Positions 4,444-19,819 of a stretch of 20,862 nucleotides of DNA are shown here, piece after piece (within the stretch, counting starts at the first letter, position 1; each line of letters begins with the position of its first letter). The notes under the pieces were generated by a model, which had not been told where the DNA came from, ran no database searches, and saw nothing but the letters and a program-made list of their open reading frames with translations. A program made the translations under genes and the position numbers. Source of the DNA: a virus; IMG/VR virus record IMGVR_UViG_3300010885_003034, positions 1 through 20,862 of that record; one strand, written 5' to 3'.

Positions 4444-4821
4444 TTATTCTTCTTCTGGTTCTTCCTCATCCGATAAAAGCTCTTGCATACGACTTTCATG
4501 GCCAATCTCAGCATAAAACTCATAATCATTATCATCGGTGAGAGTATATAAAATGTACACGCCTAAATCCGTATCTAGGTCGAGTACCACCTCATCTCCT
4601 TCTGGATCGGCATCGTAAAGTGCTGGCATGTCATAACCATACAAGTGCAACACTCTACGAATCCTTTGTATACCAGACTCAGGAGATAAAAACTTTTCAT
4701 CAGTATCATAATCCAAACGCTTATTCAGACTATCTAAATTTGTATCCATGAGTGATGGTGTTGGTGCAGGTCCTGAGACCGCACCAATTTCCATTTCACG
4801 GATATATTCAGAGAATCGCAT
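4444..4821 (-). CDS. conserved acidic protein with capsid-targeting-like N-terminus
   Basis: The 125-aa product begins M-R-F-S-E-Y-I-R-E, one of five N-termini here that fit the T4 internal-protein pattern ending in (I/L)-x-E, the T4 prohead-protease type of site. The rest is acidic: a central IQRIRRVLHLYGYDMPALYD segment (about 51-70), a DEVVLDLDTDLGVYILYTLTD strand-rich segment, and an Asp/Glu tail (SDEEEPEEE). I know it only as a conserved protein of T4-like phages. It overlaps the upstream gene by one base (TAATG). Confidence 0.78.
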   Translation of the reverse strand: MRFSEYIREMEIGAVSGPAPTPSLMDTNLDSLNKRLDYDTDEKFLSPESGIQRIRRVLHLYGYDMPALYDADPEGDEVVLDLDTDLGVYILYTLTDDNDYEFYAEIGHESRMQELLSDEEEPEEE

Positions 4822-5174
4822 TAGATACCTGGATAAGTGGTGTTTGCAGTTGCAAAGTCACCAGTCATTGAGCCCATAGCAACCAATGTTTCTGTTTGAA
4901 TACGACCAGCACGACCGCCAGTGCCTTCTTTACGCATTACCCAACCAGCATGAGCACCAGCTGTATTAGCTTTTCCAGCACCTGTATTGGATGCTTCTAA
5001 AGCACTAAGTCCGAAAACACCAATTGCTTGGCCTGCTCTACCTAAAGAAGTGCTTGTTGTAGCGAATGTTGTGTTTGAAAATAATTGTTGTGTGTTGGCT
5101 GTTAAGCCGATACCGCCAGTGCCAGCAAACTTTGGCGCATTGTTAGCGGCATCTAAATTTCCCCATAAAGACAT
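4821..5174 (-). CDS. conserved virion structural protein (Gly/Ala/Thr-rich)
   Basis: The 117-aa product starts MSLWGNLDAANNAPKF and carries the conserved block HAGWVMRKEGTGGRAGRIQT near residues 75-94, followed by ETLVAMGSMTG. I recognise this C-terminal block from structural proteins of marine T4-like phages. It is the first gene after a perfect TATAAATA late promoter and has a strong AGGAG ribosome-binding site, as expected for an abundant virion protein. Its exact place in the particle is not evident. Confidence 0.8.
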   Translation of the reverse strand: MSLWGNLDAANNAPKFAGTGGIGLTANTQQLFSNTTFATTSTSLGRAGQAIGVFGLSALEASNTGAGKANTAGAHAGWVMRKEGTGGRAGRIQTETLVAMGSMTGDFATANTTYPGI

Positions 5175-5205
5175 ATTGTTCTCCTATTTGTCTGATTTGA
5201 TTGTT

Positions 5206-5213
5206 TATTTATA
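5206..5213 (-). promoter_or_regulatory. T4-type late promoter
   Basis: The minus strand reads TATAAATA, the exact T4 late -10 element, ending 31 bases before the ATG at 5174 and followed by AGGAG. It lies in the 51-base gap after the lysine-rich mosaic gene and should drive the structural gene and probably the genes after it through the lysis cassette. A TTGACA lies directly upstream but has no matching -10 at 16-18 bases. Confidence 0.75.
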
Positions 5214-5225
5214 CCTGTCAACCAC

Positions 5226-7214
5226 TCAATAATTTTTAGTGATAGTGGAACCTAATTCTGGTTCCGATTGAAACTTATCAGCTGATGCGGTTTTAGATTT
5301 CTTAGCATCTTTAACAATTTGAGCCTTACGACTTTTCTTTGGTGCTTCTTCAGGTTCTTTCTCAACAGGTTCTGCATCTTCACGCATTGACTTAGTTGGA
5401 TTAGCATTCTTCTTTGCAGCCATTTTGGCCAAATGTTTTGCTCTAGACATTGCTGTATGTTTTGCACCAGACTTATCTGTAACTTCATCCGACTTAGATT
5501 TCTTCCAACCTGTATCTACCTTCCAACTTTCGCCTTCTACTAATGATTCATCGTGTTCAACGCTGTCGCCCATATAACGACCTTGTTCGTAACCACGACT
5601 ATTAGGGTCTTTCTTTGGTGCAGGTGCTGCAGGTTTAGATGGAAATTGCTTGGCATGAGCAGTTTTAATACCTTTTTCCAATTTAGATTTCTTAGCCATC
5701 GAATCAGCATCAGTATTATTTCTAATACTATCATACTTCTTGTGGCCAGCAACTTTGTAACTCTGTAAGGTACTAGGCGACAACTCATCCAATTGTTCAA
5801 CTTCTTCTTTAGCCATTTTCTTTCTTGCCATTACTGCGGCAATCTTAGCACGCTTTGCAGCGGCTTCTTTATCATGTGGTTTATCAGAAGGTTTAACATC
5901 TTTATCGTATGCATCACTTTCATTCATGTGACCATACTTTTTTTTGTACCAATCAGCCATACCATGTGTCTTACGATAGTGTCTTACTGTTGCAGAATCA
6001 TTGGCTTGGTCACGATACTTGTTCTCAGCAGTTGGATTGTGTGACTTCATTGCTTCAGCAGCTGCATGTGCGTCTTTAGCAATGTGTACCAAAGCCTCAT
6101 CAGACTTCTTATGATACTCATGGCCTTCCAATGGATGGCGTTGTGATGGACGACCTTCAGTCAATTCAACTTCTTCTGTTACATTCTTCTGTGAGTACAT
6201 GTAATCATGGGCAGTTTGCATATAATCTTGTGCTAAAGTAATTTTAGATTGTACCCATTCTGGAAGGTTATCGTTCTCATCTAATTGGTCATGCAACTCT
6301 TGTGCGTGGTAAATAATACTACGCAATTGTGTCATAGCCATGTCACCTTCTTGGTCATATTCACCAGGATCCTTAGCTTCGTTTTTCATATCGTTAGCAA
6401 ATTGTTTATTAGTTGCTTTCATAGTACCTGAAAACCTCTTGTTCTGTATTTCTGTATTCTTTTTGGTCTTACTGGAATCAGATTGCATTTCTTTACCAAG
6501 ACTTGAAGATTGTTTAGTAGCAGCAGATTTGTAACGAGATAACAAATTGTTAGATAGTTCATCAAGCATCTCTGTTTCTTCAAATTGCGTCTGCTTAGCA
6601 ACAACCTTAGTACCTTTTCTTACAAGATTATCAGGTGGGGTATCACCAGTTGGATCATCTCCAACTTCTTTAACTTCATTGACTGATTTCCAACCGCCAC
6701 CCATTGCTTTATATTTCTTTGCAGCCCAACCATTGGCATAAGCAGAAGGGTAAACATCAAACTTAGATTTAGCCTGTGCTTTTGCCTGAGCCCATTTTTC
6801 TGGACTTGTTGGTACATTTTTTTCGTTTAAGTTTTCCATATCTTCGCTTATCTTTCCTTTTCCAAAGTTAGACACATTTATTGGTGGACCTTTTCTCTCA
6901 GGATTAGGGTCATGTTTTCTTTTAGACGCAACGGCAGATGCTCTTTCTTTTTTACTTAAAGAAGCTCTCTTTTCGTTAGACATACACTTAGGCTTAGGTT
7001 CACCAGGTTCTCTTGCACAAGGGCCAATTGCTTCACCCTTACTATTGATCCTTTTCCAACCACCTTTTGGATCCGTTTTACTAAACCATTTACGCAAATC
7101 TTCTTCAATAGTAGGAGATTCTTTCACACAAGAACCAGGTGAGTATGCTTTTTTACCTGGCACAGATTTGTAGCCAGGCCAACATCTTTCACGCAATTCA
7201 GACCATTTTTTCAT
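5226..7214 (-). CDS. lysine-rich modular virion/head-core-type protein
   Basis: From ATG 7214 the product has 662 aa, is strongly basic and is built from short modules. MKKWSELRERCWPGYK and a WFSKTDPKGGWKRI block with cysteines come first. A FDVYPSAYANGWAAKKYK block lies near residues 152-169. Two related repeats, EETEMLDELSNNLLSRYKSA (about 213) and EEVEQLDELSPSTLQSYKVA (about 470), flank a GDMAMTQLRSIIYHAQELHDQL helix block and a YHKKSDEALVHIAKDAHAAA block. I recognise these modules from marine T4-like phages, mixed in different orders. The composition suggests a disordered head-internal or core protein. An in-frame ATG at 7250 would overlap the upstream gene by 35 bases and has no ribosome-binding site, so 7214 is preferred. 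Confidence 0.85.
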   Translation of the reverse strand: MKKWSELRERCWPGYKSVPGKKAYSPGSCVKESPTIEEDLRKWFSKTDPKGGWKRINSKGEAIGPCAREPGEPKPKCMSNEKRASLSKKERASAVASKRKHDPNPERKGPPINVSNFGKGKISEDMENLNEKNVPTSPEKWAQAKAQAKSKFDVYPSAYANGWAAKKYKAMGGGWKSVNEVKEVGDDPTGDTPPDNLVRKGTKVVAKQTQFEETEMLDELSNNLLSRYKSAATKQSSSLGKEMQSDSSKTKKNTEIQNKRFSGTMKATNKQFANDMKNEAKDPGEYDQEGDMAMTQLRSIIYHAQELHDQLDENDNLPEWVQSKITLAQDYMQTAHDYMYSQKNVTEEVELTEGRPSQRHPLEGHEYHKKSDEALVHIAKDAHAAAEAMKSHNPTAENKYRDQANDSATVRHYRKTHGMADWYKKKYGHMNESDAYDKDVKPSDKPHDKEAAAKRAKIAAVMARKKMAKEEVEQLDELSPSTLQSYKVAGHKKYDSIRNNTDADSMAKKSKLEKGIKTAHAKQFPSKPAAPAPKKDPNSRGYEQGRYMGDSVEHDESLVEGESWKVDTGWKKSKSDEVTDKSGAKHTAMSRAKHLAKMAAKKNANPTKSMREDAEPVEKEPEEAPKKSRKAQIVKDAKKSKTASADKFQSEPELGSTITKNY

Positions 7215-7215
7215 T

Positions 7216-8127
7216 TTAGTCTTTTTTAGCCTGCTTAGTTGCAGTTGCATACATTACAGATTTAGCTTTATCGCCGTATCGGTCTTTGAAACCTGCTAAA
7301 CCTTTTTTCATAGATTTAACAATTTCTTCTTTCTTCTTTGTCTCACCGGCAGTCAATGTACGTTCTTCAATGTTAACTTGGTCAACACCGTTGGCACCAT
7401 CTGCATTGATAACTTGAATGTCTTGTTCAGTTGCTTCTTGTTGAACTGCTTGAACAGATGGTTTAGCAACTTCAGCTTGTGGTTTAGTACCAGCTGCACG
7501 TTTCTTTTGGTCTTCCAATTCTTTTGCGAATTGAGCAGAATCAGGTTCTTCAGAAATCATTTCCTCTTTCTCAATAGACTCAAAGAATGCCTTCATGCCG
7601 CCATCTTTATATGTGGCAACCATTTCAGACATTTTCTTTTTCTTCTTCTCAGACTCAATAGATTTCAATTCTTTATCTTTTGGTCCTTTTAGTACATCAA
7701 ATGCGCTTGCTTCTGGTTTAGATGAACCATATGCACGACCTTGTACTTTAGTTGATGGCAAATCAGCCATCTTAACTTCATCCAACTCAACTTCTTCTTT
7801 AACGCCGGCACTTTTAAGCATATCAATACGGTCACGATAACCGCCAACGCCAGGTTTAATATCTTTAGCTGCTTGTTTTTGTGCAGGTGTTGGATTTGGA
7901 ATGTGTTTCATTGTAGTCTTAGATTGATGACTTTCTTCTTCAATCTCGATTTCTTCCTTCTTCATCTTACGAAGTTTGGCAAAATCTTTACCATCAATCT
8001 TTTCATCGTCAACCACATCAATCTTTTGTTGATTTGGATGCAATTTTTCTTCAAGTGGTGGTAAACCAGCCATGATTCGTGCAGCAACATCTGCAACATC
8101 ACGAATTTGTTTGTTATCTGAATACAT
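7216..8127 (-). CDS. lysine/glutamate-rich virion or core-type protein
   Basis: The 303-aa product is highly charged and probably largely disordered. It contains EEVELDEVKMADLPS (about 111), a VATYKDGGMKAFFESIEKEE block (about 170-189) and a C-terminal module (about 260-300) with KKEEIVKSMKKGLAGFKDRY and VMYATATKQAKK. The last module is one I recall from many marine T4-like phage proteins. It shares EEVE-type acidic motifs with the next, larger mosaic protein, so the two are probably related in role. AGGAG seven bases before the ATG supports the start. No enzymatic motif was seen. Confidence 0.82.
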   Translation of the reverse strand: MYSDNKQIRDVADVAARIMAGLPPLEEKLHPNQQKIDVVDDEKIDGKDFAKLRKMKKEEIEIEEESHQSKTTMKHIPNPTPAQKQAAKDIKPGVGGYRDRIDMLKSAGVKEEVELDEVKMADLPSTKVQGRAYGSSKPEASAFDVLKGPKDKELKSIESEKKKKKMSEMVATYKDGGMKAFFESIEKEEMISEEPDSAQFAKELEDQKKRAAGTKPQAEVAKPSVQAVQQEATEQDIQVINADGANGVDQVNIEERTLTAGETKKKEEIVKSMKKGLAGFKDRYGDKAKSVMYATATKQAKKD

Positions 8128-8148
8128 AAGTTTCTCCTGTTTTTGTTT

Positions 8149-8949
8149 TTATGTTAATTCTTTAATTGTAAATGCAAACCAAACATCAAGTTTGGTGGAA
8201 TTGTCAACTCTTTTCATGCAAAGTGTAAGCATGTTTGGCGTTGCACCACCTTTGAGCGTGGCGGGGCCTTCATCAGCATCAGAATTTTTACCAATGATAA
8301 TACCACTATGCCGCATAACTGCACCATTTGGTGTAAATGTGTTTCCATTATTAATACTGTTTTTGTCTTGATACACACGATACTGACATTTTGTTCCTAC
8401 TGAATCCCATGCAGGAATTGCGGCACCACTTATAGCAATTTCACCTTCATACCATTCATATACTATGGTACTTTGATTTGCATTATTATTACCAATCTCA
8501 TATTCCATTATTTCTGCTAAGTCTGTTATACTTGTTGCAGTATTAGAAACTCGTATACTAACAACTGGCCTCATAGTATCATCCATTGTCCAACCACGAT
8601 GCACATTTATATCATGGTTATTGAATGAAAATAAATTACCAGAAGCCTCTTCTGCAATTACTGTTATAATGTTTGAAAGTGTTACTGGTAATGAAGTTCC
8701 TGAAATATTAACATTTCCAAATTCTGTTACATGAGTATGCACTGGATTTGATGGTGAACTTGATACATTAACAGTTGTAGGTATTGCTATATTACCAACA
8801 ATATTAATATTATTTGAGCCAATAGAAACTGGTAGCGGATTGGTTGTGGAAACTAATGCGCCCAAAGCACCATTAGCCAAATACATCACCTCATAGTGTG
8901 ATGATATTTTTGGGTCTAACGCACCAGTTTCAACTTTCCATTGTGCCAT
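8149..8949 (-). CDS. beta-rich virion structural protein (function not identified)
   Basis: The 266-aa product is Ser/Thr/Asn/Ile/Val-rich, with alternating strand-like stretches (NNINIVGNIAIPTTVNV, GNVNISGTSLPVTLSNI) typical of phage fibres or baseplate proteins. A globular half follows (RGWTMDDTMRPVVSIRVSNT to DVWFAFTIKEL). There is no signal peptide, membrane segment or enzyme motif. It sits between genes for putative virion proteins. The start directly follows the upstream stop (TAA then ATG). The structural call rests on composition and position. Confidence 0.65.
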   Translation of the reverse strand: MAQWKVETGALDPKISSHYEVMYLANGALGALVSTTNPLPVSIGSNNINIVGNIAIPTTVNVSSSPSNPVHTHVTEFGNVNISGTSLPVTLSNIITVIAEEASGNLFSFNNHDINVHRGWTMDDTMRPVVSIRVSNTATSITDLAEIMEYEIGNNNANQSTIVYEWYEGEIAISGAAIPAWDSVGTKCQYRVYQDKNSINNGNTFTPNGAVMRHSGIIIGKNSDADEGPATLKGGATPNMLTLCMKRVDNSTKLDVWFAFTIKELT

Positions 8950-9243
8950 TTAGCAGTTCCACTTTCTTAAAGCTAATGCTTTGCGTGTTGGTTCGCCGTT
9001 TGGTTTTTTCATTGGACCTTCCATGCCGCCCATACGAGCACAGAATGATTTTCTACGATTTGCGGCCTTAGAACCAGGTTTCAACTTTGATGGTGGAGTT
9101 GTAACTGCCATTGAAAGTTTAGAACCTGGATTTGCAGCACGATAAGAAGCAATACCCTTGCGGTTTAAACCACCCTCAGGGTTCTTGCCTTCTTTTCGTG
9201 TCCAAGCAGGCGTTTCTGTTATGAATGCTTTAAATGATTTCAT
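8950..9243 (-). CDS. small basic DUF6321-like protein with capsid-targeting-like N-terminus
   Basis: The 97-aa product begins M-K-S-F-K-A-F-I-T-E, which fits residue for residue the pattern of the T4 internal-protein targeting sequence, with a predicted protease cut after E10. The remainder holds AWTRKEGKNPEGGLNRKG, PGSKAANRRKSFCARMGGM and PTRKALALRKWNC, a compact basic fold I recognise as DUF6321-like in many T4-like and other phages. Two cysteines and several His-free basic clusters suggest nucleic-acid binding, but no function is known. Its start overlaps the upstream stop by four bases (ATGA). Confidence 0.85.
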   Translation of the reverse strand: MKSFKAFITETPAWTRKEGKNPEGGLNRKGIASYRAANPGSKLSMAVTTPPSKLKPGSKAANRRKSFCARMGGMEGPMKKPNGEPTRKALALRKWNC

Positions 9244-11645
9244 CCTACAAACTTCTTTGATTTAAATGTTTTAAGATTAATACCAATTCGTTTCAGTTCG
9301 CCTTCTTTTTGGTCACCGATACTCATGGTTGTTTCATCGCCAGTCAATTCTTCTAATGGTTTCTTTAATGTCTTAATTCTTGTTGTACCACGGCCAAGGT
9401 TTTCGCCAGATGATGCCATTGAAAGACCAGATTCACCATTATTGATAGACTCAATTACTTTTTCTTTTTGGCGGGTGCGGATTTCTGCGAGCGTGATTTT
9501 GCTACGGGTTGTTTCTTCGGTGGTGTGCTTGGTGTCACAGGTGCAGGTGCTGGTTCCACAACAACTTCCTGTACTGGAACTGGCACTGGTTCCGGTGTTG
9601 GTTCTACCACTGGCACCGGCACTACGATTTCTTCCTGAACTGGACTCACAGAAGAAGCTTGTTCTTTTGGTTTGGTTTGGAATAATTTCTTCAGATAATT
9701 TAGCATTTTTATTTTCTCCATTAAGTTTAACAACATAACCATTCTTGTATTTAACAATGGTTCCATTCTTAGTGTGCGCTTCTTTTGCTGCTGAATTTCT
9801 AAGCATGAAAATACGCACCTTACCATCTTTGTCTCTCATCACCTCATGTTTTTCAATGAGAATATCATCATTAGTAAATGTCATACTGTCAGGTCTATCA
9901 CCAACAGATTCGTGTCTTGAACCGAGTGTCAATACTTCAGTAGTATCTGTAAATTGGTACTGTTCAGATTGAGTTTCTTCTTTTGGTGTAACACCTTGCA
10001 TCATAGAAAACATCTTATTAACTTCTTCAGCCGTATCACCAGTAATTGATACTGTAACAGATTCTTTGATGAAGTTACTAAATGATTCTTTAACAACTGG
10101 TTTAGCAGGTTTCTGTGATGAACTATTCACAGGAATCTTTGGTTGTTTTGGTTCTTCTTTATTAACCAAAACCAATTGGCCATGTACAGAACGATGTGTA
10201 ACTTTACCATTTTTGCCGTATCTACCAAAACCATAATATTGTAGACCAAGACTTCTTGCTTCTTCAGCAGCTGCATCACCAGCAGCAGGCAGTTGTTCAG
10301 CACCATCAGTTTGAACTGGTAATGTGTCTTTCTTATCCAACTCATTAGCAACCCAAAATTGAGACTCAGGTGATTTTGGTGGTGTAGAAACAAATTCTTT
10401 AAAACCTGTATATAATTGTAACAACTCAGACTTCTTTGCTTTAACTGTTTCAGGATCGGCTTGTCTTAGGTCCTCAGAGTTATCAAATTCTTTATAGTTA
10501 TCACCAAACATTTTAGCATATTCAGTACGTGCTAACTGTACACTATCCCATTTTTCTTTACGAATTGGTTCTGGTACCGCACGACCACCACGTTGGCCAC
10601 GTTCAATATTTCTTTGAGCGGAGATATCATCTCTTGTATTCACCAACAACATGGCAGTATCGTAACCAAGTTTTTCTAATTGGTCTTTGATGCGTTTTGT
10701 TTTAACTACATCATCACCAGTGCCATTAATAATCAAGCCATTGCGACCTAACAAGGCGAGTTGTTGACGCAATTCTGTAACATTCTTTGCACGACCACGG
10801 ACAATATCACGTTTCTCTGTCTCATCAACAGGCATCATCTTGTCTAGACCTTCTTTGTCCATTAAGAACTCAAGTGCCTTGTCAGAGTTAATTTCAGTCA
10901 GGCCTTGGCCATCAAGTGTATTGTCTAACACATAATCTTTACCAGAACCAGGACCACCTGCTAAGAAAACAGCTTTGAAGATTGATTGGTCATGTACACC
11001 TTCTAAAAGGATTTGTTGAAATTCTTCGTTTAGGTCAATAGACTCTTTGATACTCATGCCTTTGCGGACATCATGGTACAATTCTTTAGCGTGATGTTCT
11101 GGTATGTGTTTTGGAATGCCTTGTTTAAAGTCTTCAAAATTACCAGAGCCTGCATGTTTACGCATCTTTGAAGCAGACATACCCTCTGTACCTTCAGCAT
11201 CAGGGTCACGTTCACCTGCGTTATGTACAGTTATCTTTTTGAAGTTAAAAAGAGCACCTTCATGTGTCCCGTTGTATTTGTGCAACAGTTTGTGATACTC
11301 TGCGGTGCGGTCAGCGCCTGCAACCATGTGTAGATGTGTTACACCTTGTTTGTGTAACTTGGCTGCTTGTGTTAAGAAGTTTGGTTCTTCTTTGGTTGCA
11401 ACAGATATATTTGTATCTGGAAAGAACCTTTTGGCATGTTTTACTTTTTGTGCCGCAGTAAGAGGATTCTTATCGGCATCTTGTGAATGGGACAGAATGA
11501 TGTGATGAGAACCACCAACTTGTTTGGCAACTGATTTAACCTTATTGACCAAGACTTCATGTCCGGTCGTTGGTGGATTCATACGGCCAAACGCCATGAC
11601 CGCATGTTTCTCTTTATTCTCAGTAATAAATTCTCTAAATTTCAT
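9240..11645 (-). CDS. nucleotidyltransferase / P-loop kinase fusion with capsid-targeting-like N-terminus
   Basis: The 801-aa product begins M-K-F-R-E-F-I-T-E. A cytidylyltransferase-like domain follows, with GRMNPPTTGHE at 20-30 (the TxGH motif) and MSASKMR at 156-162 (the ISxSxxR-like motif). A P-loop kinase domain then has GGPGSGKD at 230-237 and resembles zeta-toxin or polynucleotide-kinase folds. A linker leads to SFSNFIKES at 521-529, which looks like an internal targeting or cleavage site. The C-terminal domain ends in LTGDETTMSIGDQKEGELKR and is typical of marine T4-like phages. Residues 647-730 are odd Ser/Thr/Gly/Cys-rich sequence because another gene occupies that DNA in a second frame. 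GAGG precedes the ATG. Substrates cannot be told from sequence. Confidence 0.85.
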   Translation of the reverse strand: MKFREFITENKEKHAVMAFGRMNPPTTGHEVLVNKVKSVAKQVGGSHHIILSHSQDADKNPLTAAQKVKHAKRFFPDTNISVATKEEPNFLTQAAKLHKQGVTHLHMVAGADRTAEYHKLLHKYNGTHEGALFNFKKITVHNAGERDPDAEGTEGMSASKMRKHAGSGNFEDFKQGIPKHIPEHHAKELYHDVRKGMSIKESIDLNEEFQQILLEGVHDQSIFKAVFLAGGPGSGKDYVLDNTLDGQGLTEINSDKALEFLMDKEGLDKMMPVDETEKRDIVRGRAKNVTELRQQLALLGRNGLIINGTGDDVVKTKRIKDQLEKLGYDTAMLLVNTRDDISAQRNIERGQRGGRAVPEPIRKEKWDSVQLARTEYAKMFGDNYKEFDNSEDLRQADPETVKAKKSELLQLYTGFKEFVSTPPKSPESQFWVANELDKKDTLPVQTDGAEQLPAAGDAAAEEARSLGLQYYGFGRYGKNGKVTHRSVHGQLVLVNKEEPKQPKIPVNSSSQKPAKPVVKESFSNFIKESVTVSITGDTAEEVNKMFSMMQGVTPKEETQSEQYQFTDTTEVLTLGSRHESVGDRPDSMTFTNDDILIEKHEVMRDKDGKVRIFMLRNSAAKEAHTKNGTIVKYKNGYVVKLNGENKNAKLSEEIIPNQTKRTSFFCESSSGRNRSAGASGRTNTGTSASSSTGSCCGTSTCTCDTKHTTEETTRSKITLAEIRTRQKEKVIESINNGESGLSMASSGENLGRGTTRIKTLKKPLEELTGDETTMSIGDQKEGELKRIGINLKTFKSKKFVG
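9455..9706 (-). CDS. nested proline-rich 83-aa protein in another frame of the 801-aa gene
   Basis: Within the 801-aa gene, in a different frame of the same strand, ATG 9706 to stop 9455 encodes 83 residues. A start helix MLNYLKKLFQTKPKEQ is followed by a Pro/Val/Glu repeat region (VPVPVVEPTPEPVPVPVQ, then VVVEPAPAPVTP) and a basic end (KSRSQKSAPAKKKK). GGAG lies nine bases before the ATG. The sequence looks like a genuine small phage protein, whereas the host frame over the same bases is low-complexity Ser/Thr/Gly/Cys. This suggests overprinting or insertion of a small gene. The function is unknown; the layout suggests a short amphipathic helix with a flexible basic tail. Confidence 0.6.
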   Translation of the reverse strand: MLNYLKKLFQTKPKEQASSVSPVQEEIVVPVPVVEPTPEPVPVPVQEVVVEPAPAPVTPSTPPKKQPVAKSRSQKSAPAKKKK

Positions 11646-11675
11646 GTCCCGCCTCTGCAGCAGTTGTTAATGTCT

Positions 11676-11689
11676 TATTTAGTATTTAG
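11676..11689 (-). promoter_or_regulatory. tandem CTAAATA, possible late promoter
   Basis: The minus strand carries CTAAATA twice in a row, overlapping the stop of the upstream methyltransferase gene. The second copy ends 30 bases before the ATG of the 801-aa gene, nearly the same spacing as the perfect TATAAATA promoter to its gene. CTAAATA is a one- to two-base variant of the T4 late element. The repeat and its spacing are seen; promoter activity is inferred. Confidence 0.45.
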
Positions 11690-12369
11690 TGAGTTCTGAT
11701 AATCAAAACCTCATCAGATTTTGGTCCGCCATACTCTTGTGGGATTTTAGCACCCACATTACCACGCTCAAACACCACAATACTATCATAACACGACATG
11801 CACTTTGTTTCATGTGTGAAGAAATCTGGTGCAATTTGACCTTTGGTGTGGTCTGCATTCAACTTATCAATCATGGTCTTGGCCACATTGTTGATTGAAT
11901 CTGGATGGTCAATAGAACCTCCATGAGAATTCCAATATGCCGCATGTGTATCTTCAATGAAGTAAACACCATCTTTAGCAATCTTTGGATACAAGGACTG
12001 GAATGTTTTGTTCACATGGTCAACACGGTGACTGCCATCATCCAAAACCAAATCAAACTCACCAAATTCATCTACAAGGCTTTGTAAGAATTCTGGATCA
12101 GATTGGTCACCGATGCGGACATGAACATTATTCTCAGCATCTTCAAAGTCTTTACAACTAGGTGTAATATCAATACCTACGATTGTACTATCAGGATGGA
12201 AGTATTTCTTCCACATCTCCAATGAACCACCATTCAATACACCAATCTCCAACATCTTAATTGGTTTATCTCGTAGTGCCGCAAAGTGTCGGTCATATAC
12301 CCAAAAGTAATGAGTCCACTTTGTAATCTTTTTGCCGGTGTTGTTTAGCCAGTATTCTTTTAAATCCAT
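11686..12369 (-). CDS. class I SAM-dependent methyltransferase
   Basis: From ATG 12369 the product has 227 aa, starting MDLKEYWLNNTGKK. Motif I is MLEIGVLNGGS (39-49). The acidic residue after strand 2 is in VGIDITP (64-70), and FDLVLDDGSH lies at 105-114. The pattern fits the Methyltransf_24/CmcI-like group often found with glycan genes, so it may methylate a sugar or another small group. An earlier in-frame start at 12435 would overlap the upstream gene and add an unlikely N-terminus, while GAGG lies upstream of 12369. It is the last gene of the glycan cassette. Confidence 0.85.
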   Translation of the reverse strand: MDLKEYWLNNTGKKITKWTHYFWVYDRHFAALRDKPIKMLEIGVLNGGSLEMWKKYFHPDSTIVGIDITPSCKDFEDAENNVHVRIGDQSDPEFLQSLVDEFGEFDLVLDDGSHRVDHVNKTFQSLYPKIAKDGVYFIEDTHAAYWNSHGGSIDHPDSINNVAKTMIDKLNADHTKGQIAPDFFTHETKCMSCYDSIVVFERGNVGAKIPQEYGGPKSDEVLIIRTH

Positions 12370-12370
12370 A

Positions 12371-13081
12371 TTAATATACCTCAGTTGCGCCTGTACTGGC
12401 CATGATGCCAGAACAATGCAGTTTATCAAATTCAATCACGTATCGTTTATCTATGTTCATGTGGTGTGCGTGTTCTGTATCCATTCCTTGATTAGTGTTT
12501 TCTAAACAAGCCATCAAAGTTGCCATGTAATCCTTCACCAATGATGGGCACAATGAATACATCCTAGTGATGTACAAGTGGTCTGTTAACATCAACTTAG
12601 CTTCATCAGGCATCCAAGATGGAATGGCCTTCTTAAACACATACTTTCCAAATAGACCATCATACTCTTTTAAATCAAACTCATCAAGCAATACTGTACG
12701 TGCCGAGTATTTAAAGATACGTTTAACACTATGCATCATACTCATCAAGTCTGGATTGTTGTACAACACATTAATTGTTTTCATTAACAACACAAGTTCA
12801 GCCTGACTTTTCATACCACCGCTTGCATAGTGGTTCACATCTTTGTCTTGGTGCCACACTGCCATAATGTCGGCATGGTTTGAAATGTTTTCTAACCATT
12901 TTTGGTCAACTTCATTTGGTGAACCATCAGTAAATAAAATGATATCATTTGGAAAGTGTTTACGTAGAGACACCAACGAATCAATCGTTTGTTTATATCT
13001 GTCTTCATTTGGAATAACACCTATGTTTGGTGCCAATGCCGATGTGACAATGATTAGGTTTTTATCAGGTAAGAGACTCAT
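12371..13081 (-). CDS. glycosyltransferase-like protein of T4-like phages
   Basis: The 236-aa product starts NLIIVTSALAPNIGVIPNED and has a Rossmann-like N-terminal half with IILFTDGSP. FKYSARTVLLDEFDL in the middle resembles a donor-binding region with acidic residues, followed by GKYVFKKAIPSWMPDE. I recognise this type from marine T4-like phages, where it is annotated as glycosyltransferase-like. No classical DxD is visible. It overlaps the upstream nucleotidyltransferase gene by 17 bases, so translation is coupled. Confidence 0.65.
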   Translation of the reverse strand: MSLLPDKNLIIVTSALAPNIGVIPNEDRYKQTIDSLVSLRKHFPNDIILFTDGSPNEVDQKWLENISNHADIMAVWHQDKDVNHYASGGMKSQAELVLLMKTINVLYNNPDLMSMMHSVKRIFKYSARTVLLDEFDLKEYDGLFGKYVFKKAIPSWMPDEAKLMLTDHLYITRMYSLCPSLVKDYMATLMACLENTNQGMDTEHAHHMNIDKRYVIEFDKLHCSGIMASTGATEVY

Positions 13082-13763
13082 TATATTTCTGCCAATCTTC
13101 TATTGTTCCAACATCATTATAACCTTGTACATCCTTCTCAAAGAAGATACAATCGTTCATTAGACATTCCTGTATGATGTGTGAAACAAAAATTTCATTA
13201 TGTACATTACTATTCAACTTCTCATATGTATCAACATAGAGTTTGATAGATTCAAACTTATAACCACCAACACAAAACTTATCAGATACCACTTTCTTCT
13301 CAATGATATCAGTAATAATGCCTTGTTCATTTGAAACCACGAAACTCTTGGCAGCCAAATTACTTAACATGAAATGGTTTGCAATTCTACTGATACAGAC
13401 ATAATTGCCTGGTGTATTGGTATGTGTAAAATAACTATCGCAATCTTTAATCAAAAACTCAGAGTCTTCAGATATGTTTGTAGCCTTGATAATCTGATAG
13501 GCAGTATCAGCAGGACCACTTGTTACTTTTGGAATAACAATAATGTTAATCTTATCACCAAACTGAGCCTTTAAAAGGTTGTAAGAATCGTATTTGTCAA
13601 TGTGTGCCTGAAGAATACCAACAGTAACATTGTGACCCTCAGACAAATATGGGTTGATGGATTTAGCTAACATCATTCTGCCATTCTTATCCAACAGAAG
13701 ATATTTCGGTTTCATATTTGGAAACCTAGTTGATAGGCCTGCGGCCGGTACAATTACTTCCAT
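13065..13763 (-). CDS. sugar-phosphate nucleotidyltransferase
   Basis: The enzyme would activate a sugar or related phosphate with an NTP, giving an NDP-linked donor. The 232-aa product has the signature VPAAGLSTRFPNMKPKYLL (5-23), GPADTA at 83-88 and IKDCDSYF near 105-112, whose aspartates probably bind the metal. VGGYKFES and VGTIEDWQKY near the end fit the family. Length matches short single-domain members. It overlaps the kinase gene upstream by 10 bases, which suggests two consecutive steps: phosphorylation, then nucleotidyl transfer. The substrate could be a sugar 1-phosphate or phosphocholine-like compound. Confidence 0.85.
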   Translation of the reverse strand: MEVIVPAAGLSTRFPNMKPKYLLLDKNGRMMLAKSINPYLSEGHNVTVGILQAHIDKYDSYNLLKAQFGDKINIIVIPKVTSGPADTAYQIIKATNISEDSEFLIKDCDSYFTHTNTPGNYVCISRIANHFMLSNLAAKSFVVSNEQGIITDIIEKKVVSDKFCVGGYKFESIKLYVDTYEKLNSNVHNEIFVSHIIQECLMNDCIFFEKDVQGYNDVGTIEDWQKYNESLT

Positions 13764-14494
13764 AATCTATTAATCTCTTTCACTATAAATTGTCTTTCCA
13801 TGTCGCCTGGTTTTGTGTGTAGGTACACTCGCAACAACATCAATATTAGAATATAATCATTGTTGGCTAATGGAAACTCTTTTAGAATTCTTTTCTGTAT
13901 GCTTGACAACTTAACATCTAACATCAGGTTTGTATCACGTAGAAACCATTTGCATTCTAAATCCTGTCTGAGTTTAGCAATATCAAATATGTATGAATCA
14001 TATTCAATAGTAACTGCGTCAATCATATAGAATTCGTTGCTTGTATGCAGTATATTCTCCAAAGTCAAATCACCATGATACTGTGACTGTGGTAGAATTT
14101 TAGGCAACTTAGCAATCAATTCGTCTTTGGTAAAAGGCAAATCTTCTTTATCAACCCATTCCAACTTCTTATTATACACCTCTGTGTAGTCTTTGTCAAC
14201 CACACTATCTGCAAAACTACTTAATATATCTAATAGAAAATTGGTTAAATTCTGTGTTGAACCAGATAACAGATAGTTCTTCATGTCTAGGCCATGAATA
14301 TATTCCATATCTAACACGGAGTCTTTATACTCAAATATGTTTGGTACAGGATAATAACTAGCTAGAGAAGTTAATCTCTCATAGTTTCTTTCCGTGTTAC
14401 CAACTTTTCTAATGAATTTTTTATACTTATCGGACATTAGATAGATTTTACTACCAGAATGTCCTTTAAGTTCTTTAATTACTTTTTCTTCCAT
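13754..14494 (-). CDS. small-molecule kinase, aminoglycoside phosphotransferase/choline kinase fold
   Basis: The 246-aa product shows the catalytic pattern of this kinase superfamily: YHGDLTLENIL at 139-149 (catalytic Asp and metal-binding Asn), FYMIDAV at 155-161, and FDIAKLRQDLE near 170-180. The N-lobe has FIRKVGNTERNYERL, with a likely ATP-contacting lysine. Combined with the overlapping nucleotidyltransferase gene, the likely substrate is a sugar or amino alcohol destined for a glycan; resistance to an antibiotic is unlikely in this setting. It overlaps the upstream gene by 16 bases. Confidence 0.8.
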   Translation of the reverse strand: MEEKVIKELKGHSGSKIYLMSDKYKKFIRKVGNTERNYERLTSLASYYPVPNIFEYKDSVLDMEYIHGLDMKNYLLSGSTQNLTNFLLDILSSFADSVVDKDYTEVYNKKLEWVDKEDLPFTKDELIAKLPKILPQSQYHGDLTLENILHTSNEFYMIDAVTIEYDSYIFDIAKLRQDLECKWFLRDTNLMLDVKLSSIQKRILKEFPLANNDYILILMLLRVYLHTKPGDMERQFIVKEINRLWK

Positions 14495-15177
14495 TCGGCA
14501 GCATCATCCCTAATTAAACTATGCCAAGTGCCGTTAAATTGGCCAGGTGGAAATGGGTTGTTCATGTTCACATAAACTAGATTCTCACCAATAAGACTGT
14601 GGTGGTGTAGATGAGCTCTCATCATATCTTCACCAATCATCTGAACACCTTGGTCATAGTAGTGTTCCATATTCAAGTAAATTGACATTCTACGATTCAT
14701 CACATTTGAATTACCAAATGCAAATTGGTCATTGCCAAAATCACGTTCAGGCACCATTCTGCAATTTGGAATATACAACTTAGTTGGATCCAAATCTGCA
14801 AATGGAATCTCCACATTCAAGGCATAATCTGTACGTGACTTGATAACCCAATCATACAGAAACTTTTTATCCATTTCCTGTTCTGTCTTATACAACATAG
14901 TTTGGAAAATAGAATACAACATAGCCACCGTGAAGCGTGATGGGTGTGCCTGTGCATTTGGTGTGTTTGTGTACTTCTTATCAAAATTACCAACCAATGG
15001 TTTCTCAACCACCATCTTTACAGGTTTATACAACTGACGGAGTTCTTCAAGGCCTTCAGCTTGCCATGTGTGAATGAATATATCCACATCATGTTTGTCT
15101 AATAGGTTTCTTTTATAGTATTCATAACCTTGTTTGAAACTTCTGGCTTGGCCAGATAAACATAAAGCAATTTTCAT
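14479..15177 (-). CDS. glycosyltransferase-like protein (SGQxR family)
   Basis: The 232-aa product begins MKIALCLSGQARSFKQGYEY, has DVDIFIHTWQ at 30-39, VIKSRTDYALN at 111-121 and NDQFAFGNSNVM at 149-160. This arrangement is known from phage and bacterial proteins treated as glycosyltransferases; the SR-x-D motif may take the role of a DxD. The neighbouring broken gene shows the same ordered motifs, so the two appear to be paralogues. The start lies just after the stop of that gene. Confidence 0.65.
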   Translation of the reverse strand: MKIALCLSGQARSFKQGYEYYKRNLLDKHDVDIFIHTWQAEGLEELRQLYKPVKMVVEKPLVGNFDKKYTNTPNAQAHPSRFTVAMLYSIFQTMLYKTEQEMDKKFLYDWVIKSRTDYALNVEIPFADLDPTKLYIPNCRMVPERDFGNDQFAFGNSNVMNRRMSIYLNMEHYYDQGVQMIGEDMMRAHLHHHSLIGENLVYVNMNNPFPPGQFNGTWHSLIRDDAAEWKKK

Positions 15178-15178
15178 A

Positions 15179-15508
15179 TTATCTTCTTAAAAATACAGGC
15201 AAATCAACAACAGTATATGGTGTGTTTGTTTCAAAAAAGTTTCTCATACACAACATGTGTGGGCAATATCTATTCTCATCATGTAAGCGGATATCTCTTT
15301 GACCATTCTCCCAAAAGAATTTAACTGATAGCCATTCTTTCATTTTCTTATTGAATCTACGTGACAATATATCTTCTGCTCGTGGGTAGAAGAAGTAGTT
15401 GTCTGCATATTTCCATGGAACAATAGCAAAGATATCAGATACCATACCATACTGCTCATTGGTTGGTGTAACAACTGCATCAGGAAATTCAGAAACAATT
15501 GCTCTGAC
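15179..15508 (-). pseudogene. 3' part of an interrupted glycosyltransferase-like gene
   Basis: These codons continue in the same frame directly after the TGA at 15511-15509. They read VRAIVSEFPDAV, then NEQYGMVSDIFAIVP, then a C-terminal part ending VVDLPVFLRR. The NEQYGMVSDIF segment matches the position of NDQFAFGNSNVM in the adjacent intact paralogue, so this is the second half of one protein. An internal ATG at 15445 could restart translation (88 aa), but it has no good ribosome-binding site and would lack the N-terminal nucleotide-binding half. Confidence 0.65.
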
Positions 15509-15889
15509 TCAGAAGGCATTCATATGTGTATCAAATCTGGAGAATACAACATTATTATATTCTTTTTCAATCAACTCAAATGCTTTTCTACGTGCAAAGT
15601 GCATCGATAGTGTTGCAAAGTTTTTATCTGGAGTAATAAGTTCTTTTGGATTTTTTGTTAAAATTCTTTGTTCAGCCTCAAGGAATTCTGGCAGATAGGT
15701 TTCATTCTTCTCTGCCTTCCATTTGATTGGTTTCAAAGTCTTAACAACAAAATCAATTTCATCTTGGTTGCCTTCATCCCAAATATACAGATACACATCC
15801 AATTCATTGAAGCGAATAAAATGTGTTAGTTCTTCTGCGATACTTTTAAAGGTTCTTACATGACCTGCCATTACTAATGCGTTACTCAC
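15509..15889 (-). CDS. 5' part of an interrupted glycosyltransferase-like gene
   Basis: The GTG at 15889, seven bases after GGAG and overlapping the upstream stop by eight bases, starts a 126-aa frame: SNALVMAGHVRTFKSI, then LDVYLYIWDEG, then VVFSRFDTHMNAF and TGA. A TTG at 15904 is in frame but lies upstream of the Shine-Dalgarno. The motifs parallel the next gene (SGQARSF, DVDIFIHTW, SRTDYALN), and the stop falls just after the SR-x-D motif. The product is therefore a truncated glycosyltransferase, or the sequence carries an error or the stop is suppressed. Confidence 0.7.
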   Translation of the reverse strand: MSNALVMAGHVRTFKSIAEELTHFIRFNELDVYLYIWDEGNQDEIDFVVKTLKPIKWKAEKNETYLPEFLEAEQRILTKNPKELITPDKNFATLSMHFARRKAFELIEKEYNNVVFSRFDTHMNAF

Positions 15890-16718
15890 CGTATTTCTCC
15901 TCAATCATCCGGCGCATTTCAGGCACTCTATCATATTGATGAACAATATGGTATGGAATTCCTTTTGATGTGGTCACAATACCTCGGTACATAGAAGGAG
16001 ATGGTTCTAACAGATATGGTTTAAATTGATTAATCTTAGTTGGGTCTGCTGTTGTGCCCAACTGGCAAGCCCAACCTGTTTCTGATTGAGTATAGAGAGA
16101 AGTTTCTTTATAAGGACTCATAGAGACCATGAAGTTAAATGTTGATTGGTCGCAAATTGGTATCGGACAGTTTGCTGCCATGGTGAAGATGTTAATTGCC
16201 AAATCACGCACCGCAGAGCCAGTACCAGCAAGAACACCAACATTATAGATTTCATTTTCTTTGTAAATTCCGTGTACATAAGGGCCAAAAGTCTCCAACA
16301 GGTTTTGGTTGCCCCAAGGTTCGTCTTTGTATAACATGCTCTCAGAAGAAAACACCAGATTATGTCTAAGGCAATTTGCTTCTAAGAAGTCAATAGGGTT
16401 GGATTGGAAAATAACATCCTTTACGTCTGTCGTAATGACGTAACGATATTCATTTTTGCGGAGATATTCGTAGATATGGCCAAATCGCTCAACGTGGATT
16501 GGCATTTCTGATTTGTAGGTCAAGTTACCATCGGAATCTTGGTTGAATCCAATAACTTTAAAACCTGCTGCGTTAACTTTTTTAACTGTGGCTGCATCAC
16601 AGTTCATTAGAATCAGGACTTTATCACCTTCAAATCCTGATTTATTAATGGAATTAATCCAATATTTTAATTTGTCCCAATCATAGTTGGTACTTGCACC
16701 GATTATCAAATCTTTCAT
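15882..16718 (-). CDS. glycosyltransferase (GT-A-like)
   Basis: The 278-aa product starts KDLIIGASTNYDWDKLKYWI and has a Rossmann-like first half. YVITTDVKDVIFQSNPI at 93-109 gives a DVKD acidic motif in the place of the GT-A DxD, with a following NVGVLAGTG and a CDQSTFNFM block. This fits glycosyltransferases acting on NDP-sugars in the cytoplasm. GGAG six bases before the ATG supports the start. It is the first gene of the glycan cassette. Confidence 0.75.
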   Translation of the reverse strand: MKDLIIGASTNYDWDKLKYWINSINKSGFEGDKVLILMNCDAATVKKVNAAGFKVIGFNQDSDGNLTYKSEMPIHVERFGHIYEYLRKNEYRYVITTDVKDVIFQSNPIDFLEANCLRHNLVFSSESMLYKDEPWGNQNLLETFGPYVHGIYKENEIYNVGVLAGTGSAVRDLAINIFTMAANCPIPICDQSTFNFMVSMSPYKETSLYTQSETGWACQLGTTADPTKINQFKPYLLEPSPSMYRGIVTTSKGIPYHIVHQYDRVPEMRRMIEEKYGE

Positions 16719-16735
16719 AATATACTCCAGTTGGT

Positions 16736-17071
16736 TTACTTAGTTGTTTTGTAGTCTTTAAATGAGGTAATGTTTTGGCCTGGCGTGCCTTTTTTATAGT
16801 TGTTTGCCAGAGTATCTGTTCCCCATGCACCTGCGCCAGACTTAGGCAGGATATCAGGTTTAATTTCTTCATGCACACTCTTATGTAGTTTGACTCCAGT
16901 AACGTCTTGGACCATCTTCCATGCGTCTTTGTGGCGCTTGTTCTTCACATGGTCATCAAACTGTTTTTTCTGTTCTGGACTAGCATTACTTTTGAACTTA
17001 ATCAGTTCCATGATACCGATATTGCCTGCATAGGCTGCTTCCATTAGTTCATCGAATTCGGTAAATTTCAT
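16736..17071 (-). CDS. conserved small protein with capsid-targeting-like N-terminus
   Basis: The 111-aa product begins M-K-F-T-E-F-D-E-L-M-E-A; a T4-type prohead protease site would be L-M-E|A. The body has AGNIGIMELIKFKSNASPEQ, KRHKDAWKMVQDVTGVKLHK and an S/G/K-rich tail ending TSFKDYKTTK. I recognise this as a conserved small protein of marine T4-like phages, of unknown function. GAGG before the ATG supports the start. It lies between conserved phage genes and the glycan cassette, so it probably marks the edge of the inserted region. Confidence 0.8.
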   Translation of the reverse strand: MKFTEFDELMEAAYAGNIGIMELIKFKSNASPEQKKQFDDHVKNKRHKDAWKMVQDVTGVKLHKSVHEEIKPDILPKSGAGAWGTDTLANNYKKGTPGQNITSFKDYKTTK

Positions 17072-17072
17072 T

Positions 17073-17351
17073 TCAACCTCGTGTTAGGTTTAATATCTTT
17101 TGAATTTGTGCCTCTAATGCCGGCTTGCGGTTAGGCCACTTAATAATCGGTTGGTCAGCAGTCTTTAACAACCTAGTTAAGAAAGGCAGAATCAACTTTT
17201 CAACTGCTTCTAATCTTGCTTTGTATTCTTCAACTGTTTCATCTTTTTCTGCAATAACCGCATTGTATTCTTCTTCGTCAGTTGCCGTAAATCCAAAGTC
17301 GTCTTCACCATACTCGGCTAAGATTTCGGTTAAATCAAATTTCTTATCCAT
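17073..17351 (-). CDS. conserved hypothetical protein of marine T4-like phages
   Basis: The 92-aa product from ATG 17351 begins MDKKFDLTEILAEYGEDDFG, then FTATDEEE, a helical EYKARLEAVEKLILPFLTRL segment, and IKWPNRKPALEAQIQKIL near the end. It is recognisable as a conserved small protein of cyanophage-like T4 relatives; I know no function. An in-frame TTG at 17363 lies on the wrong side of the GGAG, while the ATG has GGAG six bases upstream and overlaps the previous stop by one base (TAATG). Confidence 0.82.
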   Translation of the reverse strand: MDKKFDLTEILAEYGEDDFGFTATDEEEYNAVIAEKDETVEEYKARLEAVEKLILPFLTRLLKTADQPIIKWPNRKPALEAQIQKILNLTRG

Positions 17352-18583
17352 TACTTGCTCCAATTCTTAGCGGCATTAAAATTAGCATGAGCAAATTCCA
17401 GTCTATCAATCAACTTAACAGCATTACCTTTTAACCTATCAACTGCCACAAAACCTTCTGGATTGGTAACTTTGAAACCATCATCAGTACGTAAGAATGT
17501 ATTGGTTACTTGTTTCATTTGTTGCAACTTCTTAACAATCATATTCTTAACATCAACCAACTGATTCATCAAATCAAAAATGTTTTTCAAGTCTGTTGAC
17601 GCATTACGAAAGAAACGCATAATCTCTGTTTTCTCTTTGATACGTTTCTGTCTAGTTTCTTCCTTCTTGGCATCAATAATGTCTTTATTCAATTTAGCCT
17701 CAACCCAACGAATCAACTCTAGTGTGTGAGCTCTTGTGTCTTTAATCTTCAGACCTTCACGCACTTTGGTGTTATTGAATGTTTTAATATATGTAAGAAT
17801 AACATCACTTGTTGAAATTCGATTCAAGTTTAATGAATTGATTGTTTGAAAGGTTCTGCCGGCTTGAGACAGGATAGATGTAACTGTTCTTGTTTCTTCT
17901 TCGGTAAATGAGGCAGTACCAGATGCATCAACAAAGTAAGCATCACGGAACCAAACATCTTTGGTTGTTGTAAGGTTCTTAATGTCAATGTTGAATGAGG
18001 CTTTCATATCAGAGAATGTTTTACCTGTATATGAAGTGTGAAACACCACACCCATCTGAGCAGCTAACATCATTTGCGCTAACTTAGAATCAGCAGGCAC
18101 AGCATAGACAATTGTATTTGGTTGAAATGTGATGTAGTCTTCACCATCAATTGTTTTGTTCTGTATATCACCTTTAGCAAACATCATGTCGCCTTGTAAT
18201 ACACCCTTGATGCCTAATTTTGGCAAATAACGTAATGCAATTTTAAGTTTGGAATTTAATCCTTCTGAAGCATGGTTCGCATCAATGTCTGCATCGGTGT
18301 AGTTTAACTTAGGATTGGCATTGAACACACCTTTTGTACCAACAAAGAATTTGCCATTGTCTGGATTAATACCACAGAAAATAGCAGGTGCACCATCCCA
18401 TTTAGTAGTCAGATTCACTTTAGAATTGGCATGGCCAGCAAGCATATCACGGAGAGATTGCAAGAAGTTGATTGCATCTCTAGCACCAGAAACACCACGA
18501 TTCAGAACTTCGTCTTCAATGTGTTCTAGGTGAAGGTTAGCACCTTCTTTTTTTGATTCGGTTAAAAATTGTGTGAATTTCAT
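17351..18583 (-). CDS. DUF6267-like protein with ligase-type KxDG motif and capsid-targeting-like N-terminus
   Basis: The 410-aa product begins M-K-F-T-Q-F-L-T-E-S, a capsid-targeting-like start. NLHLEHIEDEVLNRGVSGAR follows, then TTKWDGAPAIFCGI at 59-72, KFFVGTKGVF at 78-87, GVLQGDMMF at 127-135 and ITFQPNTIVYAV at 151-162. The K-W-D-G sequence and the following order of blocks resemble motifs I, III and IIIa of DNA/RNA ligases and capping enzymes, with K61 the candidate adenylylated lysine. I recognise the family as DUF6267, conserved in T4-like marine phages. The C-terminal half is helical and basic. The start follows the upstream stop by one base, with no clear ribosome-binding site. The enzymatic reading is an inference. 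Confidence 0.8.
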   Translation of the reverse strand: MKFTQFLTESKKEGANLHLEHIEDEVLNRGVSGARDAINFLQSLRDMLAGHANSKVNLTTKWDGAPAIFCGINPDNGKFFVGTKGVFNANPKLNYTDADIDANHASEGLNSKLKIALRYLPKLGIKGVLQGDMMFAKGDIQNKTIDGEDYITFQPNTIVYAVPADSKLAQMMLAAQMGVVFHTSYTGKTFSDMKASFNIDIKNLTTTKDVWFRDAYFVDASGTASFTEEETRTVTSILSQAGRTFQTINSLNLNRISTSDVILTYIKTFNNTKVREGLKIKDTRAHTLELIRWVEAKLNKDIIDAKKEETRQKRIKEKTEIMRFFRNASTDLKNIFDLMNQLVDVKNMIVKKLQQMKQVTNTFLRTDDGFKVTNPEGFVAVDRLKGNAVKLIDRLEFAHANFNAAKNWSK

Positions 18584-19791: not shown

Positions 19792-19819
19792 TCCTACCAG
19801 AATTACCGAATAATGTCAA
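19786..19819 (-). promoter_or_regulatory. overlapping sigma70-like and late-like promoters
   Basis: On the minus strand, TTGACA (19819-19814) is followed after 17 bases by TAGGAT (19796-19791), preceded by TG plus one base (extended -10). Overlapping it, GATAAATA (19793-19786) is a 7-of-8 match to the T4 late element. The late start would fall near 19780, just after the 5' arm of the hairpin, and the sigma70-like start near 19784. The -35 box lies in the last codons of the upstream gene. Confidence 0.55.

Follow-up and report, generated by a model that had tools for sequence, protein, structure and literature searches.

Five genes on the minus strand of the aquatic virus sequence IMGVR_UViG_3300010885_003034 encode proteins that begin with a shared short motif, and this start is very likely a capsid targeting sequence of the T4 type, carried by a mixed and probably late-expressed set of proteins. 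The window analysed here is the entire IMG/VR fragment of 20,862 bases. Its proteins match families from Synechococcus, Prochlorococcus, Pelagibacter and Methylophilales phages, many of them Kyanoviridae, and by these matches its source is a T4-like phage. The targeting reading, put forward in the initial annotation, is supported by the confinement of the motif to gene starts, by the gp21 prohead protease in relatives, by the start of the T4 internal proteins IPII and IPIII and by the presence of tagged homologues in published virion mass spectrometry (MS); the domains behind the motif are many and unrelated. The T4-type targeting sequence itself is known already. What is new is the repeat of the motif at internal domain borders of one of the five proteins, of 801 amino acids (aa).

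Five proteins with a common start

The start codons of the five genes end at 4821, 9243, 11645, 17071 and 18583, and the N-termini read, in the same order, MRFSEYIRE/M, MKSFKAFITE/T, MKFREFITE/N, MKFTEFDELME/A and MKFTQFLTE/S, where the slash marks the presumed cut. The consensus originally proposed for them, M-[KR]-x(0-1)-F-x-x-[FY]-[IL]-x-E, is exact in four of the five; MKFTEFDELMEA (start 17071) departs from it as a looser variant, with two additional residues between F-x-x-F and L-x-E. The exact tags, all on the minus strand, lie at 4795-4821 (125-aa protein without a family match, 4444-4821), 9214-9243 (97-aa basic DUF6321 protein, 8950-9243, PF19846, E 2e-22), 11619-11645 (801-aa protein, 9240-11645) and 18557-18583 (410-aa DUF6267 protein, 17351-18583, PF19782, E 2e-113). 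The variant, on the same strand, occupies 17039-17071 and precedes a 111-aa protein without a trustworthy family match (16736-17071). The remaining parts of the five proteins are indeed unrelated, all-against-all BLASTP at E ≤ 1 giving no detectable similarity.

Comparable starts are found in relatives. MRFSEYIRE is retained in L082-L084 and in the 157.7-kb relative G001, and reads MRFKQFVEE in the relative from G003. DUF6321 relatives begin MKTLKQFVSE, MISFKEFINE or MKSLKEFINE, and S-SZBM1_192 begins MKTFKQYITEA. A tag-like start was found in 17 of 18 distinct homologues of the 801-aa protein, and in 39 aligned DUF6267 relatives the first nine residues stay within an M-x-F-x-x-[FY]-[IL]-x-E-like pattern, in which F and the final E are invariant. 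Comparison of the 111-aa family indicated that the aromatic part has frequently changed or disappeared and that [ILV]-x-E/A-[ASG]-Y-x-G-N-[IL]-G is mostly retained; since the relatives of MKFTEFDELMEA keep mainly [ILV]-x-E/A, the 111-aa protein appears to have the presumed cut site in common with the others, not the whole tag.

Confinement of the motif to gene starts

Among the 29 called genes of the window, the motif [FY]xx[FY][ILMV]xE, counted as N-terminal when it starts within the first 7 residues, occurs at 4 of 203 N-terminal positions versus 3 of 6447 elsewhere (odds ratio 43, p = 3e-5). This p value is optimistic because the motif was chosen after being seen, and the test, being post hoc, was therefore repeated on other genomes. 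In G001 the counts were 5 of 1424 N-terminal positions versus 4 of 40559 elsewhere (p = 5e-6), and enrichment was also found in G004 (p = 1e-4), G003 (p = 0.002) and the cultured Synechococcus phage S-CREM2 (p = 4e-5); in G006, with 1 match, it was not significant (p = 0.16).

A DNA pattern encoding MKxFxxF(h)xEA was also scanned across IMG/VR, a match being counted as a start when no long open frame preceded it and it opened an open reading frame (ORF) that was at least 45 aa long or reached the contig end. At least 124 matches were obtained, of which 123 are ORF starts, with none internal among the matches listed; the first 80 tag loci listed fall into 27 sequence clusters. For a scrambled control with the same codons rearranged, the whole collection contained 32 matches, of which 24 were short or out of frame and 6 counted as starts. 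As the initial annotation had predicted, the motif is thus found essentially only at gene starts, both in the window and across IMG/VR, the exception being two junctions inside the 801-aa protein. An in-frame Met apparently inside nrdB (G001:71498) and several short frames found with a wider regular expression were set aside as likely false matches.

Tagged homologues in purified virions

The virion evidence comes from published reports on cultured relatives. Virion proteomics of S-CREM2 detected 52 of 219 proteins (PMC10665884). The exact consensus occurs in 3 of the 219, namely the SAM lyase gp6 (PF23780, E 2e-19), the kinase gp14 and the cytidylyltransferase gp154. Each of them is among the detected proteins, for which the chance probability is about 0.013 by our own arithmetic. 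The wider regular expression adds gp136, which was detected, and gp30, giving 4 of 5 (p = 0.012), and the virion-detected gp13 (MKDLHSFLTEQD) and gp15 (MNFSEFNESL) start with near variants of the tag. In S-SM1, the virion-detected cytidylyltransferase T4-GC190 (PMC3037559) starts MKKFSAFLNEA; in S-SZBM1, the virion-detected cytidylyltransferase S-SZBM1_140 (PMC9146016) starts MRFRQFIIEA; and a cytidylyltransferase/NMNAT was reported from S-SCSM1 virions (PMC9602691).

The cyanophage virion cytidylyltransferase/NMNAT (T4-GC190) resembles the 801-aa protein in its homologous domain, its tagged start and its detection by MS, in S-SM1, S-SZBM1 and S-CREM2; unlike it, the window transferase is fused to a kinase and C-terminal parts via tag-like junctions. 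No mention of a targeting sequence was found in the available parts of the S-SM1, S-SZBM1 and S-CREM2 reports, and a literature search of partial coverage found no paper that connects T4-like phages of marine or fresh waters with the tag. Purified cyanophage particles have repeatedly yielded cytidylyltransferases, kinases, a SAM lyase and also a Cas9-like protein, and virion studies cannot tell packaged proteins from contaminants (PMC10665884). A tag that predicts packaging would provide a direct test between the two, together with a likely mechanism, and would make it possible to draw up lists, for uncultivated phages too, of proteins that are packaged and possibly injected.

The Cas9-like annotation belongs to S-CREM2 gp12 (L134:7704-10313), a virion-detected protein with FASFMAEA at residue 19, possibly a candidate targeting sequence after an over-long annotated start.

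Comparison with T4 and the prohead protease

In T4 (NC_000866), IPII and IPIII start MKTYQEFIAE, the very sequence on which the initial annotation had drawn; IPI starts MKTFKEFTST, with ITE/A at 19, and Alt starts MELITELFDED. LLRE/S is present in gp24, and gp23 has FGSFLTE/A at residue 65, its propeptide being 65 residues long (PMC5694885). The starts of the internal proteins and the gp23 site together indicate that the same heptad acts in T4 both as tag and as cleavage context. As a control, the regular expression matched only IPII, IPIII and two spurious frames in T4. All T4 internal head proteins enter the core via a targeting sequence that gp21 later removes, and foreign proteins provided with this sequence get packaged (PMC3012670, PMC5694885).

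The likeness to IPII/IPIII targeting (Mullaney and Black 1996, reviewed in PMC3012670 and PMC5694885) consists in a shared 10-residue N-terminal [FY]-x-x-F-I-x-E on unrelated proteins, in a genome with a gp21-type protease and a scaffold, as here in relatives. The T4 internal proteins are small; the candidate cargo of the window also contains large enzymes of several domains, one of which has further copies of the motif where its domains meet. Alt, a packaged and injected ADP-ribosyltransferase, is likewise a large enzyme in the head, but the variant at its start is another one, and the window showed no identifiable ADP-ribosyltransferase. Ejection proteins of the giant phages SPN3US and phiKZ (PMC5694885) likewise have N-terminal propeptides cut by the prohead protease from head-packaged proteins; these differ in being mostly >100 residues long and in having another cleavage motif.

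Of 9 longer relatives, 6 carry a gene for the protease gp21 (PF03420), and G001, in which the best segment matches the 801-aa protein at 95%, is one of them. Among tagged IMG/VR contigs 6 of 15 have this gene, versus none of 13 controls (by our own arithmetic a one-sided p of about 0.013, for contigs whose sizes overlap but are unmatched); the initial annotation had predicted a gp21 homologue alongside the motif. Near gp21, the relatives G001, G003, G004 and G006 carry core-type genes and a scaffold gene in the gp22 position with 12-13 [IL]xE sites, assigned by position and sequence rather than by profile search, and their major capsid protein has an MLYE/T, ILQE/T or YLTE/A site near residue 52. 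One core-type protein of G006 itself starts MRLIDFIFEGK.

A proposed packaging route and its alternatives

We infer the following route for the tagged proteins. A peptide of ~10 residues (aromatic, two residues, aromatic, Ile/Leu, any residue, Glu) would dock the precursor to the scaffold during formation of the prohead core. After shell assembly, a gp21-type protease would cut behind the Glu, and the mature protein would remain inside with the DNA. The set would comprise the DUF6267 protein, the cytidylyl/NMN-adenylyltransferase-kinase polyprotein, the basic DUF6321 protein, the 125-aa protein and probably the 111-aa protein; gp21 would also cut the 801-aa protein at its two junctions and so release its enzymes from one another within the head. 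Once mature, the proteins would probably be ejected with the DNA and be active at once in the host, as are T4 IPI and Alt.

Several observations weigh against this route. No gp21-type prohead protease (S77) was found within the 20.9-kb window fragment itself, and several of the residues after the Glu (N, Q, M) differ from those at T4 sites. The tag is absent on DUF6267 of S-SM1 and S-SZBM1, and in HTVC008M it is degenerate on both DUF6267 (MYNDLLVEDK) and the transferase (MKTLKELLRKK). The virion detections are of homologues in other phages, the window phage being known from its sequence. In S-CREM2 the association of the tag with MS is numerically modest, gp30 (MNFKKWFKEW) matched the wider expression and went undetected, and the authors were unable to exclude co-purification (PMC10665884). 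Tagged S-SZBM1_191 and _192 were not seen in the list of 30 virion proteins of S-SZBM1. Position-weight scores over all S-CREM2 proteins separated MS-positive from MS-negative proteins weakly (p = 0.058); in a self-chosen subset without tail proteins the separation reached p = 0.002. This matrix, weak overall and over-weighting the start Met, was set aside.

The peptide might package its protein through scaffold binding and yet not be a processing site, or the protein might stay uncut. Such a docking function would fit the variety of residues behind the Glu (N, Q, M, T, S, A) as well as the weaker or altered motif ends in some relatives, but the Glu is invariant in the DUF6267 relatives, the 16736 family conserves precisely [ILV]-x-E/A and T4 gp23 is itself processed at this motif, and we consider this alternative unlikely. 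Far less credible is a common descent in which one ancestral tagged N-terminus was recombined onto new bodies and has no present targeting role. The starts are very alike, with MKTF and MKSF dominating among the IMG/VR matches listed, and modules have been shuffled behind the tag in DUF6321-type proteins. However, without a function a 10-residue start should hardly last on many unrelated bodies, tagged proteins are detected in virions, and recombinational spread is itself compatible with targeting, so that descent competes with it as to function only. The probability of chance, or of a compositional bias of short K/F/E-rich N-termini, seems negligible: the motif is short and its first test was post hoc, but the enrichment was replicated in several genomes, and the same-codon scrambled pattern was far rarer and mostly out of frame, so that we count this explanation as refuted by the IMG/VR scan.

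The 801-aa protein as a candidate polyprotein

The 801-aa protein contains a cytidylyl/NMN-adenylyltransferase domain at residues 9-204 (phrog_3041, E 3e-66) and a zeta-toxin/AAA-type kinase domain at residues about 217-437 (PF06414, E 2e-9), followed by a ~34-aa module and C-terminal parts; the nucleotidyltransferase and kinase domains initially ascribed to a member of the candidate packaged set are both borne out by these matches. The border between transferase and kinase reads EEFQQILLE/GVHD (junction 1, 11001-11021, minus strand) and that between kinase and C-terminal part ESFSNFIKE/SVT (junction 2, 10062-10082, minus strand), each a candidate gp21 site. Of 18 distinct homologues, 12 have F-x-x-h-h-x-E at junction 1 and the others something similar or shorter, in every case immediately followed by GVHD, and at junction 2 F-x-x-F-[IL]-x-E follows the kinase domain in 8 homologues. 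The junction motif had 0 matches in 7033 residues of the homologues' folded domains. HTVC008M has a gene of its own for the kinase, starting MIPFILKE/GLYDPGIFKAFFLAGGPGSGK, right at the transferase/kinase border, and in L189, a tagged protein from the collection, this border recurs as FESLLTE/G in front of a HAD-like domain. Over the whole 801-aa protein the enrichment of [IL]xE is not significant (P = 0.13), and the junction motif alone stands out.

From these sequence comparisons we infer that both junction motifs could be gp21 sites, and the occurrence of the tag motif at both domain junctions suggests a packaged polyprotein cut into separate enzymes. A frameshift near the end of the gene, at a low-complexity stretch, was rejected, as both frames are open in relatives. 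The prospects seem evenly balanced for a broader proposal, in which T4-like phages of natural waters use the tag as an address label that is general and transferable, and the intrachain motif is a processing signal that lets the enzymes of a polyprotein be delivered together. If so, one packaged polyprotein would yield a nucleotidyltransferase, a kinase and a third part in the capsid, and a search for tags at gene starts would list packaged effectors directly from metagenomes. It is the motif at internal domain borders that raises the possibility of a protease-released multi-enzyme cargo.

Upstream of the gene lies CTAAATACTAAATA, a conserved late-promoter-like doublet (11676-11689, minus strand). 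CTAAATA or TATAAATA was found in 17 of 19 distinct stretches upstream of 801-aa homologues versus 11 of 178 G001 genes. The T4 late promoter is TATAAATA, which the upstream motif resembles.

The ~34-aa module, LGLxxxGxGx[WY]xDxxGxxxx[KR][TS]xxGxL at residues about 461-494, is common to the 801-aa protein, S-CREM2 gp12 and gp14 and cyanophage cytidylyltransferases (loci L134, L133, L193 and others); no Pfam match to it was seen in the proteins scanned. Because the module search is circular for loci fetched by their tag, it was repeated from a tag-independent internal pattern, which gave the tag at the start codon in 78 of 79 ORFs versus 1 of 443 other ORFs of the same loci; nearly all 79 belong to one cytidylyltransferase family and so count as a single family. 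An 83-aa gene (MLNYLKKLFQTKPKE...KSRSQKSAPAKKKK; 9455-9706, minus strand) is nested in another frame within the 801-aa gene, and its ATG and a GGAG/AGGAG site recur in about ten homologues (L007, L071, L081-L084, L093, L094, G001, G003). Substitutions in this region are spread evenly over codon positions (56/45/50), versus 47/28/232 in the transferase domain.

Proteins behind the tag and the DUF6267 protein

The tag of relatives stands on DUF6267, the cytidylyltransferase-kinase protein, DUF6321 and the 4444-family. It is also found on two proteins that we labelled from their motifs, a phosphatase of the HAD type and a nuclease-like protein of 351 residues with TDxxIGxxxxSLK. The tag loci listed from IMG/VR add GNAT, RlpA/DPBB and WYL_2 by Pfam and, by eye, an HExxH protein and an HNH-like protein. 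In the Pelagibacter podovirus HTVC131P (Autographiviridae), the DUF6321 gene gp35 (L129:3992-4231) has no tag and lies between scaffold and capsid genes, a position that suggests a head role without need for the tag.

The label "ligase-like" given at first to the DUF6267 protein, which has conserved KWDG and PEGFVAVD motifs, proved unsupported beyond the KxDG motif. Within the limits set by a shallow alignment, a profile search found no PDB sequence match and hhalign no match to T4 gp30, RnlA or RnlB; AlphaFold, given 39 close relatives, produced a poor model (predicted local distance difference test 67, predicted template modelling score 0.49), and Foldseek returned nothing at E ≤ 0.001. With neither a sequence, a profile nor a fold match, identification as a ligase was, within these limits, rejected. 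A short ORF at L072:4396-4580 has the DUF6267 tag start (MKFTQYLTEAKK) followed by unrelated sequence, and the DUF6267 match of L072 begins only at residue 17; this resembles an insertion directly behind the tag.

Neighbouring genes

A modular, K/R-rich protein of 674 aa with a phrog_727-type module (5226-7250, minus strand) contains 10 [IL]xE sites versus 3.8 expected (P = 0.0035), 8 of them in acidic context versus 1.2 expected (0 of 2000 shuffles), and has phrog_727 in common with the virion-detected S-CREM2 gp160. By its sequence, it is a candidate for a processed head protein without the canonical tag. The adjoining K/E-rich protein of 303 aa (7216-8127, minus strand) has 5 [IL]xE sites, an enrichment that is not significant (P = 0.19; acidic context P = 0.04), and its place in the packaged set is weakly indicated.

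The stretch 11686-16718, which separates two of the tagged genes, those for the 801-aa and the 111-aa protein, is taken up by about eight genes of glycosyltransferase, methyltransferase, sugar-nucleotidyltransferase and kinase-like type. G001 has a gap of similar size at this block, and in Melnitz and HTVC008M the genes of the tagged families are adjacent. A 343-aa protein with a match to the Druantia DruA domain (PF14236, E 1.5e-10) is encoded at 19803-20834 and adjoins the tagged set.

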